From the NCBI GenBank assembly GCA_040752595.1, contig JBFMGX010000016.1, positions 1-36,362 of the forward strand: a stretch of 36,362 bases of DNA. Direction: 5' to 3'. The notes under the pieces are model-generated. The model ran no database searches. It was given only the letters and a program-made list of their open reading frames with translations, and had not been told where the DNA came from. Source of the stretch: Candidatus Zixiibacteriota bacterium. GTDB taxonomy: Bacteria > Zixibacteria > MSB-5A5 > WJJR01. Below are positions 21,610-28,541 of the stretch, one piece after another. Positions within the stretch are counted from its first letter, which is position 1. The number at the start of each line of letters is the position of its first letter. The position numbers and the translations under genes were made by a program.

Positions 21610-21634
21610 GGGCGGTTCACGAACCGCCCCTACA
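21610..21634 (-). repeat. GGGGCGGTTC REP, copy 1 (3' flank of RAYT 1)
   Basis: Minus strand: TGTAGGGGCGGTTC-GTGAACCGCCC, stem GGGCGGTTC / GAACCGCCC. The TAG in its head is the stop codon (21630-21632) of the transposase gene. Confidence 0.85.
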
Positions 21635-22214
21635 GGCAGTCGCCATCCACAGGGACTGGGACAATCCCGCTGGGATTCTCCCGGTCCATGGCCCAGCGCG
21701 CAGGATTGCATTGAATGTAGAGTCGGACGCGGTTCAGTTCGTCGTCATCGCGGATGACATGCTCGTAGTAATTGCGTTGCCAAGGAGTCGCCCCGGGTGT
21801 CCCCTTGATCCGATTGACATGCTTTGTCGAAACCGTCTTGAACGCCCCAACAACCCGACCGATGGATTTCCTCTCCACATCCGGAATTGCTGTAGGGGCG
21901 GTTCGAGAACCGCCCGCATCCTCCCGCCCGACCACGACGATGCCATGCAGGTGGTTCGGCATGATGATCCACTCGTCCAGTTCCACATAGTCGTATTGTC
22001 GGGCCAGCCACAACCACGAGTCGGCAACGACCTGCCCGAGGGTGTTCAAGACAACGGAGTCATTCCCCACGATGCCCAGCGACATGGCCCGGTCCTCGGT
22101 GCAGATCGTCAGAAAATAGGCGCCAGCGCGCGTGTAGTCATAGCCGCGAAGTCGGACAGACCGGCGCGTGGGTCGATTGTGAGGAAGGCCCATCACCCAA
22201 GACGGGCGGTTCAC
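21630..22214 (-). CDS. REP-associated tyrosine transposase (RAYT 1, Y1/HUH family)
   Basis: Single-strand DNA transposase-like protein of the Y1_Tnp/IS200-like superfamily that typically acts on REP palindromes. It has 194 residues from GTG 22214, or 187 from ATG 22193. The HUH motif is IIMPNHLHGIV with His88 and His90; the candidate nucleophile is Tyr149 or Tyr150 in WQRNYYEHVIRDDDEL; LNRVRLYIQCNPARW follows as in the family. Both the GTG start and the TAG stop lie inside flanking REP copies, and a third, inverted copy in the reading frame encodes [10 protein letters not shown] (100-109). The gene separates mcmB from the dehydrogenase of the same strand. The start is uncertain; the family is not. 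Confidence 0.92.
   Translation of the reverse strand: MNRPSWVMGLPHNRPTRRSVRLRGYDYTRAGAYFLTICTEDRAMSLGIVGNDSVVLNTLGQVVADSWLWLARQYDYVELDEWIIMPNHLHGIVVVGREDAGGSRTAPTAIPDVERKSIGRVVGAFKTVSTKHVNRIKGTPGATPWQRNYYEHVIRDDDELNRVRLYIQCNPARWAMDRENPSGIVPVPVDGDCL
21891..21915 (+). repeat. GGGGCGGTTC REP, copy 2 (inside the RAYT 1 coding region)
   Basis: Plus strand TGTAGGGGCGGTTC-GAGAACCGCCC, inverted relative to the two flanking copies. It is in frame and adds about ten residues between the HUH motif and the tyrosine motif without breaking the gene. Confidence 0.85.
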
Positions 22215-24629: not shown

Positions 24630-25607
24630 CTATTCCCGCGACCGACACCAAGCGTCAAACAGACGGCGCGCCAGTGTGTACGGATCGGCCTGGGCAGTCG
24701 CGATCTGTTCGACGGCCTGCTCGAACTCCGCCGCGACCAGAATCTGGTCCTCCATCCGCAAACGCGCCAGCTCGGCGAGCGACAAGGTCAGATCCGCCCG
24801 CGCCCGCCGTCGCACGACCCCATTGGGGTCGGCGGCATCGTGGAAACGACGGTGCGACTGTGTCGCCTCCCAGAGGCCGTCGGTCCCCTCGTCGTCCACG
24901 GCAACGGTCGTGAGCACGGGAGGGTTCCAGTGCGGCGTCGAGGCGGTGCTCTTGGCCGCGCTGCGACGGATTTCCTGCTTCACCTCCAGAATCGACTCCA
25001 GCTCCGCTTTGACCCGTTCGGCCCCCGGACGATCGGCCTTGTTGATGCAGAAGACGTCGGCGATCTCCATCAGTCCCGATTTCATCGCCTGAATCGCATC
25101 TCCCGATTCCGGGACGAAGACGACGATCACCGTGTCGCAGACCGAGGCGACATCGAGCTCCACCTGCCCGACACCGACAGTTTCCACGAGGATCAGGTCA
25201 AAGCCGAATCCTTCGAACGCCACACAGACATCCCGCGTGGCGGCGGCCAGACCGCCGGGTGACCCGCGGGTCGCCATGCTGCGCACAAAGACACCGGGCA
25301 AACCGTAGAGCGACTGCATGCGCACCCGGTCGCCCAACAGCGCACCCCCGGTGAACGGACTGGAAGGATCGACCGCGACCACCCCGACCTGATGTCCCTC
25401 GTTCGCCAGCTTGAGCGCCAGCCGGTTGACCAGCGACGACTTACCCGCCCCTGGAGGGCCGGTCACGCCGACACGATAGGCGCCCCGACGGTGCGCGAAG
25501 ATCCGGGCCAGCGCCTCATGGTATCCCGGCGCACGGTCCTCGATATAGGTGATCATCCGCGCCAGCGCGAGACGATCACCGGAGAGAAATCGGGAGAGGA
25601 GGGACAT
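24630..25607 (-). CDS. meaB: MeaB/ArgK-type G-protein chaperone of B12 mutases
   Basis: G3E-family GTPase that gates adenosylcobalamin loading and protects acyl-CoA mutases from inactivation. It has 325 residues, with the P-loop VGVTGPPGAGKSSLV (Lys56), the Walker B-like VVAVDPSSPFTGGALLGDRVR, ETVGVGQVELD, CINKADRPGAE (base specificity) and a C-terminal dimerisation helix region. It sits upstream of the second mutase and its B12 subunit, the usual arrangement. No strong ribosome binding site precedes the ATG; TAGAAT lies only a few bases upstream, so a leaderless or near-leaderless message is possible, though no good -35 is seen. Confidence 0.95.
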   Translation of the reverse strand: MSLLSRFLSGDRLALARMITYIEDRAPGYHEALARIFAHRRGAYRVGVTGPPGAGKSSLVNRLALKLANEGHQVGVVAVDPSSPFTGGALLGDRVRMQSLYGLPGVFVRSMATRGSPGGLAAATRDVCVAFEGFGFDLILVETVGVGQVELDVASVCDTVIVVFVPESGDAIQAMKSGLMEIADVFCINKADRPGAERVKAELESILEVKQEIRRSAAKSTASTPHWNPPVLTTVAVDDEGTDGLWEATQSHRRFHDAADPNGVVRRRARADLTLSLAELARLRMEDQILVAAEFEQAVEQIATAQADPYTLARRLFDAWCRSRE

Positions 25608-25679
25608 TATTCTATGCTCGTTGGCGTGTCCGGTGTCCGTCAGTCCTCAATCTACGCCTGTCAGCGTTCACCTGTGGCA

Positions 25680-25787
25680 GTCAGCCCTTGGGCTGATCCG
25701 CCGTGGCGGACCGCGTAGCGGCGATCTGCGCGCCACGCTCACTGACGAATGGACCCTTCGGGTCCAAGGTCAGCCCAAGGGCTGACC
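25680..25787. repeat. Doublet of GTCAGCCC palindromes with internal hairpins
   Basis: Palindromes at 25680-25697 (GTCAGCCCTTGGGCTGAT) and 25768-25787 (GGTCAGCCCAAGGGCTGACC) enclose two further hairpins, CCGCC-GT-GGCGG and GGACCC-TTCG-GGTCC. It lies between meaB and the 3' end of RAYT 2; the rest of this gap shows no gene. Confidence 0.8.
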
Positions 25788-25817
25788 GGCACAGGAGCCA
25801 TGACACCTTCCATTTGC

Positions 25818-26447
25818 TCAAGGTTCTGTGCGGGTCAGCCCTTGGGCTGACCCCGGGCCGGAACGGCCCGTTCGGCCACATTCTCGGCAACACTGCCTGC
25901 CAAGAGCGGGCGACAGTCGGTCAATTGAACAAACGAGTCCCTCTCCGGTCGCACAGAATCTCGCGGAGGAATATGCGTAGTCCTCGGCGCATTCGACAAG
26001 GCCCGCGCGGACCGGATTTCCATGGATGTACTCCAGCTTGACGCCGAACACCTCTGGCGTGTAGAGCGCCACGTCATCGAATCGGCTCACCCAGACCTTG
26101 TGCTGCTTCCGCTTCGGTTCGCCGTAGGTCCGGGCAGCGTCCGCAAAGGCACTGCGCCATTCCCCGGAAACCGAGTCGATCACGATCTGTGCCGTCAGAC
26201 TCTTCCAGGCACCAATGAAGCGCGACGTCTCTCCCCGGTGTGATGCCCTCGCGATGGCGTGAAAGTGATTGAGCATGAGGACATAGGCATAGATCGTCAT
26301 GTCATGAAGTTGCCGCTGCCGCTCGAAGAGCTCCAAAGCAGATCGTGCCAGGACGGGGTCGCGAAAGACGGGGATGAAATCCGTGATTGTCGTCGTGACG
26401 AACAAGGGGTAGGCCGAATCGTCGATATTGGCTCGGCCACGTTTCAT
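25818..26447 (-). CDS. REP-associated transposase (RAYT 2, Y1/HUH family)
   Basis: Second, distantly related Y1_Tnp protein, 209 residues from the ATG at 26447; a longer frame to 26594 translates tandem repeat. HUH histidines are His61 and His63 in YVLMLNHFHAI. The C-terminal signature is KLEYIHGNPVRAGLVE and YAYSSARF. The segment SRFDDVALYT stands where other branches have a WQxxYyxH tyrosine, so the nucleophile may be Tyr129; this is uncertain. The last ~13 residues (GPGSAQGLTRTEP) are encoded by a GTCAGCCC palindrome, so the C-terminus has been extended or reset by a repeat. The start codon lies in a tandem-repeat unit, with GGAG 8 bp upstream. Confidence 0.88.
   Translation of the reverse strand: MKRGRANIDDSAYPLFVTTTITDFIPVFRDPVLARSALELFERQRQLHDMTIYAYVLMLNHFHAIARASHRGETSRFIGAWKSLTAQIVIDSVSGEWRSAFADAARTYGEPKRKQHKVWVSRFDDVALYTPEVFGVKLEYIHGNPVRAGLVECAEDYAYSSARFCATGEGLVCSIDRLSPALGRQCCRECGRTGRSGPGSAQGLTRTEP
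25833..25852. repeat. GTCAGCCC palindrome inside the RAYT 2 3' end
   Basis: GGTCAGCCCTTGGGCTGACC, a perfect 20-bp palindrome within the last codons of RAYT 2. It is followed by a CGGGCCG/CGGCCCG hairpin. Confidence 0.85.
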
Positions 26448-26694
26448 GATGGTCGCTCCGCGACCAAAGTCAGCCCAAGGGCTGACCCGCACAAAGCACA
26501 CTTTTGGCGAGGTGCCAAAGTGAACGACACCGCCCAGGCCGCGCTCCATGATGGTCGCTCCGCAACCAAGGTCAGCCCAAAAGTTGATTCGCACAAGGCA
26601 CTCTCTGACAAGGTGCCAAAGTGAACGATATCGCCTGGGCCGTGCTCCATGATGGTCGCTCCGCGACCAGGGTCAGCCCAAGGGCTGACCCGCA
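26445..26694. repeat. ~101-bp tandem repeat, two full units plus one partial, upstream of RAYT 2
   Basis: Units start with CATGATGGTCGCTCCGC at 26445, 26547 and 26648 (periods 102 and 101 bp; the third matches for about 47 bp). Each contains a GTCAGCCC palindrome (perfect at 26469 and 26671, degenerate at 26571), GCACA, and, in the full units, GTGCCAAAGTGAACGA. The first ATG of each unit on the minus strand corresponds to the RAYT 2 start codon, and similarity continues some 25 bp into the gene. No gene is seen between 26448 and 26834. Confidence 0.85.
26451..26465 (-). promoter_or_regulatory. Hairpin enclosing the RAYT 2 ribosome binding site
   Basis: Minus strand GGTCGC-GGA-GCGACC: a 6-bp stem whose loop and first stem base carry GGAG, 8 bp before the ATG. 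Folding would hide the ribosome binding site. The same hairpin is in each tandem unit. Confidence 0.45.
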
Positions 26695-26744
26695 CTCACT
26701 TGATCCCATTATTCTGAGTGTTCCTGCGATCTTATTCCTGTGCC

Positions 26745-26791
26745 GGTCAGCCCTTGGGCTGACGTTCGCCCGCAGCAGCGGGCGATCCTGT
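26745..26791. repeat. GTCAGCCC palindrome plus CGCCCGC hairpin
   Basis: GGTCAGCCCTTGGGCTGAC at 26745-26763, followed by CGCCCGC-AGCA-GCGGGCG. It is the outermost copy on this side of the RAYT 2 locus, 72 bp or so from the recJ stop. Confidence 0.8.
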
Positions 26792-26834
26792 CTTCTTCGG
26801 ACACGGTGAGGCCGTCGGGAGTCTCACCTATCAT

Positions 26835-28541
26835 TCACATCAACCGGAAGTCCTTCACGCGTAACTGCAAACGGCGGGTGTTGTCCCACTCGATCCGCTC
26901 GGGGACATAGGCCAGGTCGATCCGGCCGGAATGCGATGAGAGCGTCGAGGCGCGGTCCCCCATGCCGAAGCCGATGCAATCGAACACCCTGCCGCTGTGG
27001 CGCACCTTGAACTTCAGGTGGTTGTTCCCCACGATGTAGGGCGACCCGGCCATCTCGATGCTCTCGCTGACGAAGACGGGACGGGTGTTGTGTGGGCCGA
27101 AGGGCGAGAAGCGGTCGAGATTGTCCATGAAATCGTCGGTCAACGTGTCGAGTTCCATGCGGGAGTCAATCACCAGTTTGGGGATGAGATCGTCCTCGGC
27201 GAGCCGTTCGGCGGCCACGCGCTTGAAGCGCTCGGTGAAGGCGGGGATCTTGTCGCGGGCAATCGACATCCCGGCGGCGTACTTGTGCCCGCCGTAGCGG
27301 AGCACCAGATCGCCGCACTCGCGGAAGGCATCATAGAGGTCGAAGGCGGGAATCGAGCGTGCCGACCCTTTTCCTTCATCGCCGTCAACCGCGATCATCA
27401 CGGTCGGGACATGGAACCGCTCGACCAATCGTGAGGCGACAATCCCGATCACACCCTGATGCCACCCCGGCGATGAGAGGACGATGGCCCGGTCGCGTGC
27501 GCGATCCTGGGCCCGGTCAATCTGGGCCAGCGCCTGACCGAGGGTCTTTTCGTCGAGGATCTTGCGCGTGCGGTTCTCGCGTTCCAGATGGTGCGCGATG
27601 TCGATGGCGACGGCATCATCGCGGGTCGAGAGGAGTTTCACGGCGAGCCGGGCATCGCCGAGCCGGCCGACGGCATTGATGCGCGGCGCCAGAATGAAGA
27701 CGATCTGACCGGTCGTGATCGATTTGCCGATCAGATTGGACACGAAACAGAGCGACTTGAGACCCGGCTTGTTGGTTCGCTCGATTTGGCGCAGTCCATA
27801 CTTGGTGAGGACGCGGTTTTCACCGACCAGCGGCACGATGTCCGCCGCGGTTCCGAGCGCCACGAGATCGAGGTGCTCTTCCAATTCACTTTCGTCCTGC
27901 CCCAAAGAGCGATAGAGCGCCTGGGCGAGCTTGTAGGAGACACCGACTCCCGCCAGATCATCAGTCGGTGAGCCCTTGGGTCCGAGCTTGGGATTGACGA
28001 TCGCCTCGGCATCGGGAAGCCCCTCACCGGGCTGATGGTGATCGGCGACGACGACCTTGATCCCCTTGCTGCGGGCGTATTCAACCTCTTCAATCGCCGT
28101 GATGCCGCAATCCACCGTGAGGATCAACCGAACACCCGTGGCAACGGCATGATCGATGCCGTCGGGGGAGAGCCCGTATCCCTCCACCAGACGATTGGGC
28201 AGGTAGTATTGGACGTCGGCGCCGAGCCGGTTGAGGACAAGATACATCAACGCCGTCGACGTGATCCCGTCGACGTCGTAGTCCCCATAGACCATGATCA
28301 GTTCACGGTCTTTTAGGGCGCGGATCAGGCGATCCACGGCCGACCGCATGCCGGGAAGCAGGAAGGGATCGGTCAGCTCACCGATGCGCGGCTCAAAAAA
28401 CTGCTGGACGTGCTCGGGGGAATCGACGCCCCGGGCAAAGAGCAACGAGGCGATCTGCTGCGGCAATCCGCAAGCCACCGCCAGCTCCCGCGTGGCTTCA
28501 CCGGCCGGTGATGGAGCAAACTCCCACTGTACTGGAGACAA
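26835..28541 (-). CDS. recJ: Single-stranded-DNA-specific exonuclease RecJ
   Basis: 5'-3' exonuclease acting in recombination and mismatch repair. It has 568 residues, with DHH-domain motif I VYGDYDVDGITST (Asp87, Asp89, Asp91), motif II LTVDCGIT, motif III VADHHQPGEGLP (167-169), motif IV LVALGTAADIVPL, then the DHHA1 domain with LRYGGHKYAAGMS and a C-terminal OB-like domain. The start is TTG at 28541, which gives the usual N-terminal QWEF; GGGGG lies upstream. It begins 36 bp after the 3' end of the RNase P RNA gene, so it may be transcribed by read-through from it. Length is normal for the family. Confidence 0.96.
   Translation of the reverse strand: MSPVQWEFAPSPAGEATRELAVACGLPQQIASLLFARGVDSPEHVQQFFEPRIGELTDPFLLPGMRSAVDRLIRALKDRELIMVYGDYDVDGITSTALMYLVLNRLGADVQYYLPNRLVEGYGLSPDGIDHAVATGVRLILTVDCGITAIEEVEYARSKGIKVVVADHHQPGEGLPDAEAIVNPKLGPKGSPTDDLAGVGVSYKLAQALYRSLGQDESELEEHLDLVALGTAADIVPLVGENRVLTKYGLRQIERTNKPGLKSLCFVSNLIGKSITTGQIVFILAPRINAVGRLGDARLAVKLLSTRDDAVAIDIAHHLERENRTRKILDEKTLGQALAQIDRAQDRARDRAIVLSSPGWHQGVIGIVASRLVERFHVPTVMIAVDGDEGKGSARSIPAFDLYDAFRECGDLVLRYGGHKYAAGMSIARDKIPAFTERFKRVAAERLAEDDLIPKLVIDSRMELDTLTDDFMDNLDRFSPFGPHNTRPVFVSESIEMAGSPYIVGNNHLKFKVRHSGRVFDCIGFGMGDRASTLSSHSGRIDLAYVPERIEWDNTRRLQLRVKDFRLM

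Follow-up and report, generated by a model that had tools for sequence, protein, structure and literature searches.

Upstream of the RAYT2 gene in a Candidatus Zixiibacteriota genome, the leader of the gene, its start codon and its first codons were found to be repeated head to tail, each unit carrying a REP element. The array is a variant of the known REP arrays that adjoin RAYT genes, here including the gene start. Its anatomy points to one-ended, head-to-tail accretion anchored at the REP, which is probably how it formed, plausibly through the action of the RAYT itself. When the window (the whole stretch analysed, 36,362 nucleotides of contig JBFMGX010000016.1) was scanned with TRF, one sizeable array was returned, at 26445 to 26695, with a period of 101, 2.5 copies and 83% matches. 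Both RAYT2 (26447-25818) and the array lie on the minus strand, with the array upstream of the gene.

Read 5' to 3' on the minus strand, each unit comprises the foot GTGC, a palindrome, a second hairpin, GGAG and ATG. The foot is followed by GG in units 1 and 3 and by GA in unit 2 and then by the 18-nt palindrome, and TC directly precedes the ATG. Unit 1 (26448 to 26492) is the RAYT2 leader, consisting of GTGCGG, the palindrome GTCAGCCCTTGGGCTGAC (26469 to 26486), TT, the second hairpin TGGTCGC-GGA-GCGACCA (26450 to 26466, with GGAG at 26456-26459) and TC, and it abuts the ATG at 26447, placing the RAYT2 start 21 nt behind the REP palindrome. Unit 2 (26493 to 26594; 102 bp) contains a decayed palindrome, ATCAACTTTTGGGCTGAC (26571 to 26588), the second hairpin, GGAG and an ATG at 26549, while unit 3 (26595 to 26695; 101 bp) contains an intact palindrome (26672 to 26689), the second hairpin, GGAG and an ATG at 26650. 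The start-to-start spacings are 101 and 102. No repetition was seen in the sequence before the GTGC foot of unit 3 (26692-26695), and this coincidence of the outer array limit with the foot, exact to position 26695, supports REP anchoring.

With the register held fixed, unit 3 matched RAYT2 at 15/22 positions following the ATG and unit 2 at 13/22, values equalled by 0/20,000 and 1/20,000 dinucleotide shuffles, respectively. The likeness to the coding start spans the first 22 to 28 nt of RAYT2 (26420 to 26447), with no clear resemblance past about +28; gapped alignment to RAYT2 beyond approximately this point was mildly unusual for unit 3 (56/5000 shuffles) and not unusual for unit 2 (1820/5000 shuffles as good). 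An earlier note, made from the sequence alone, had proposed that the leader, start codon and first codons of RAYT2 were copied head to tail upstream, and the TRF array and the shuffle test together bear this out. Its description of the units was correct in part: GGTCGC-GGA-GCGACC is exact in units 1 and 3 but reads GGTTGC-GGA-GCGACC in unit 2, where the GTCAGCCC palindrome, intact in the other two units, has also decayed, and GTGCCAAAGTGAACGA occurs in units 2 and 3 but not in unit 1. Alignment of units 2 and 3 over 102 positions shows 19 differences, of which 18 are transitions, and this divergence, together with the decayed palindrome of unit 2, suggests an old, drifting array. The search for isolated units that the note had proposed, run over the 2.94-Mb genome, detected the whole unit nowhere else and only the palindrome part dispersed; the possibility that the unit is a common dispersed repeat thus holds for the REP part but not for the part with the start codon. 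No matches were obtained in an Rfam search of 25500-27000 or when a plasmid collection was searched with the array as the query.

The assignment of the gene as a RAYT, also made in the earlier note, was upheld. RAYT2 (209 aa; 25818 to 26447, minus strand) scored 87 bits against NF047646 (cut-off, 80), and in a protein alignment both H61-F-H63 (HUH) and Y140-IHG-NP were intact, the latter being the class 2 Y---NP signature of RAYT/TnpAREP as defined in PMC6006769. Against Pfam Y1_Tnp it scored 19.8 bits, under the cut-off of 23. At residues 59 to 63, leucine (MLNHFH) replaces a near-invariant proline ahead of the HUH motif (M-P-x-H). A second RAYT-like gene of the window (21630-22214, minus strand) scored 60.7 bits against NF047646, below the cut-off; the upstream stretch read for this gene contained no REP of the RAYT2 family and no array.

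RAYT2 is flanked by oppositely oriented, genome-dispersed REPs (26469 and 25834), the arrangement that defines a REPtron. An inverted right-type REP half lies upstream of the array on the plus strand (26740 to 26786; GTGCCG, palindrome and the stem GTTCGCCCGC...GCGGGCGA), an inverted half lies at the 3' end of the gene (25828 to 25870, plus strand; GTGCGG, palindrome and hairpin), and a complete REPIN of two inverted REP halves follows downstream (25673 to 25792). The last codons of RAYT2 run through the downstream REP (25818-25870), which is thereby translated at the C terminus; a RAYT relative in another genome of the family (G004) likewise ends inside a REP. Two other genomes of the family lack RAYT2 at the recJ-meaB site: recJ and meaB are about 37 bp apart in G006, and the 348-bp gap in G005 is without a match to RAYT2. 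The G004 relative is located on a different contig from recJ. RAYT2 therefore appears to have been either acquired at this site or lost elsewhere. Two genomes of the same genus (G001 and G002) gave no match to RAYT2.

The palindrome, GTCAGCCC-NN-GGGCTGAC, was identified as part of a REP by its dispersal, with 34 genome sites at ≤2 mismatches versus 2 for the control. Most copies form inverted pairs approximately 80 bp apart, i.e., REPINs, built from two types of half: GTGCGG, palindrome, CTC and second hairpin, or GTGCCG, palindrome, GTT and hairpin. Nearly all copies have GTGC as the foot rather than the GT[AG]G of GTAG-type REPs, and no clear base preference before the foot was apparent by eye at the junctions of dispersed copies. 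All 16 halves of the first (left) type carried a second hairpin, compared with a mean of 0.8 and a maximum of 3 in shuffled sequences. Beside the near-invariant palindrome, the hairpin (26450-26466 in the window; L031-L045 in the same genome) has 8 distinct stems in the 16 copies, all of which pair.

Since such a hairpin accompanies all 16 like halves, GGTCGC-GGA-GCGACC is simply the form that a general part of the REP takes at this locus. It is also missing from the leader of the G004 RAYT, and the idea, put forward in the earlier note, of a hairpin that specifically serves the ribosome binding site was rejected. The loop GGA and the next G form the GGAG, 8 nt from the ATG. On the proposal that the hairpin hides this site, folding of the leader RNA pointed both ways. 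The GGAG was largely in the loop, with a predicted cost of ~2.6 kcal/mol to open, and the AUG was free, so that the loop would display the GGAG rather than bury it; opening of the entire GGAG-AUG stretch, on the other hand, would cost 8.4 kcal/mol.

The closest RAYT found was that of G004, 55% identical to RAYT2. It starts 24 nt after the same palindrome and has neither the second hairpin nor a leader array. Candidatus Zixiibacteriota are among the named relatives of the RAYT. In G004, some 90 REP matches were observed, and the stretches fetched contained at least 10 tandem arrays of the same REP, with periods of 49 to 210. The 68-bp unit of one of these arrays includes the last codons of a neighbouring gene; the two stretches with 68-bp REP arrays (L116 and L118, on G004 contigs 22 and 14) both terminate at contig ends. 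REP arrays in the family also adjoin ordinary genes. Of the REP loci examined in the genome of the window, none besides that of RAYT2 had a tandem array.

Arrays near RAYT starts were surveyed in the region from -300 to +60 of 198 distinct RAYT leaders that had 300 nt or more of upstream sequence, with a minimum array period of 15, and 123 stretches at -1000 to -640 served as the control. Tandem arrays were present in 27/198 RAYT upstream regions compared with 3/123 control stretches (p = 6e-4). Five arrays reached the start codon: that of the window, L173 from Foetidibacter luteolus (110-bp unit, array to about +30), L226 (several units reaching the start region), L235 (138-bp unit, array to +24) and L160 from a member of the Thiotrichales (133-bp unit, array to the A of the ATG). 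L226 and L235 are assumed to be from Bacteroidota, as presumed relatives of the Foetidibacter genome, and the RAYTs of L226, L173 and L160 all scored above the NF047646 cut-off. Two further candidates were set aside, L165 on account of post-REP similarity that was low in complexity and L176 on account of a repeat covering only a REP pair. Short tandem repeats of 13 to 23 bp upstream of four other RAYTs (L012, L051, L075 and L202) combine half a REP palindrome with flanking sequence. Start codons were not reached more often at RAYTs (5/198) than at other ORFs in the same loci (3/142). As other ORF starts are reached as often, the capture of a gene start reflects proximity and is not special to the RAYT start. 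One of these three other ORF starts belongs to a REP array near a RAYT in Thiohalocapsa sp. ML1 (L157, ~2200-2690), which has three units that carry 56 nt of the start of another gene; in its upstream copies the ATG is lost.

In the L226 array, seven units lie upstream of the gene. All begin at the same REP position, and they cease to resemble the gene copy at -4, -24, about +55, +9, -24, -4 and about +14, counted from the ATG, giving one REP-side end versus five far ends (-24, -4, +9, about +14 and about +55). Some units may have been multiplied together later, as lengths of 81/82 and 63 recur; hence, at least five different junctions are represented rather than seven independent events. A fixed end combined with a variable end is what would be expected from joining the 5' end at a REP foot to varying 3' ends, and it is not a pattern that recombination between fixed units would produce.

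The main competitor is ordinary tandem duplication by replication slippage or unequal recombination in a region rich in hairpins, in which the RAYT would be uninvolved and REP hairpins would merely provoke slippage. The near-equal lengths of the two full units in the window (101 and 102) would also result from two successive ordinary duplications and count against REP-anchored joining; many tandem arrays of G004 have regular periods, and L226 holds larger repeated blocks. This explanation nevertheless appears less likely: L226 has a single constant end and five far ends, little microhomology was seen by eye at the L226 and L235 junctions, and arrays concentrate beside RAYT genes, though REPs do too. 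An artefact of assembly would be a very improbable origin. The genome is metagenome derived and in 50 contigs, but units 2 and 3 differ at 19/102 positions and so are not one unit misassembled twice, and like arrays are present in named genomes other than metagenome assemblies (L173 of F. luteolus and L157 of Thiohalocapsa sp. ML1).

The array could instead have been selected for translational control, with hairpins limiting RAYT translation and the extra leaders serving as decoys, coupled upstream frames or alternative starts. REP hairpins are common directly before RAYT starts. A proposal in the literature is that they reduce translation of the RAYT, as in IS200 (PMC3733652). In the array, GGAG-8 nt-ATG is unchanged in 3/3 units, the unit 2 ATG is in frame with RAYT2 and opens a 243-aa reading frame, and a 68-codon frame from unit 3 ends at a TGA (26446-26444) whose ATGA overlaps the RAYT2 start. 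However, the hairpin is found in every left REP half examined and is missing from the G004 leader, and the longest identical run between units 2 and 3, 21 nt, was not unusual (p = 0.15), so that selection on the spare GGAG-ATG block was not accepted. Spare starts have also been lost in parallel arrays, becoming ATA in one L226 unit and ACG in an L157 copy. Translational control is accordingly considered a poor candidate, and no evidence was obtained for the decoys suggested in the earlier note. The spare ATGs appear to be under no selection, and unit 2 may permit, by chance, a RAYT longer by 34 aa.

REP-anchored copying thus remains the favored explanation, and the involvement of the RAYT at the window array is inferred from the anatomy of the array. 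The RAYT, as an HUH/Y1 single-strand nuclease, would cut at the foot of the REP and keep the REP-side 5' end on its tyrosine until that end was joined to a 3' end that had stopped variably in the flank. The boundary on the REP side would then be fixed and the far one variable, with the gene start carried along through its adjacency to the REP. REPIN clusters are known as tandem repeats with flanks that adjoin RAYTs (PMC3116915), and TnpAREP of E. coli cleaves and rejoins single-stranded REPs (PMC8266576). Against this explanation, no source was identified for the last ~30 nt of the units in the window, RAYT starts are not captured more often than other ORF starts nearby, and the foot is GTGC here whereas the chemistry was studied on GT[AG]G. 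Among the readings in the earlier note, a record of strand-transfer events agrees best with the L226 ends and the parallel arrays. More tentatively, arrays upstream of RAYTs could constitute a readable record of single strand-transfer events, the REP foot being fixed and the other end being that of a nascent or broken strand, in which domesticated transposases would have copied gene starts, their own included, and created alternative or upstream frames.

With its head-to-tail units of REP plus flank, the array conforms to a tandem REP/REPIN cluster. Such clusters in Pseudomonas fluorescens SBW25 (Bertels and Rainey 2011, PMC3116915) are also head to tail, and some lie beside the cognate RAYT, but the flank carried here is the RAYT's own start codon and first codons; no report of an array carrying a RAYT's own start codon was found in the literature searched. 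The locus resembles a REPtron (Nunvar 2010, PMC2817692; TnpAREP, PMC8266576) in having a RAYT with HUH and Y---NP motifs between inverted dispersed REPs. It differs in that the foot is GTGC and not GT[AG]G, the second hairpin of left halves varies, and the upstream REP is present 2.5 times together with the gene start. BIME-2 arrays of enterobacteria likewise contain consecutive copies of REP-containing units, whereas here the REPs of the units all face the same way and coding sequence is included. IS200/IS605 transposons share a related Y1/HUH nuclease and a hairpin near the transposase start, but RAYT2 scores as a REP-associated transposase (NF047646).

Since similar REP-anchored copying is found beside RAYT relatives in other bacteria, the array looks like a by-product of how REPs spread and not a purpose-built switch. 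Arrays that contain identifiable coding sequence reveal the start and end of each copied segment, as plain REP arrays do not, and they bear on how REPs spread and form arrays. The fixed REP-side end with variable far ends provides a testable signature of the joining reaction, which would also offer a route for duplicating gene starts, giving rise to spare start sites, N-terminal extensions and upstream frames.
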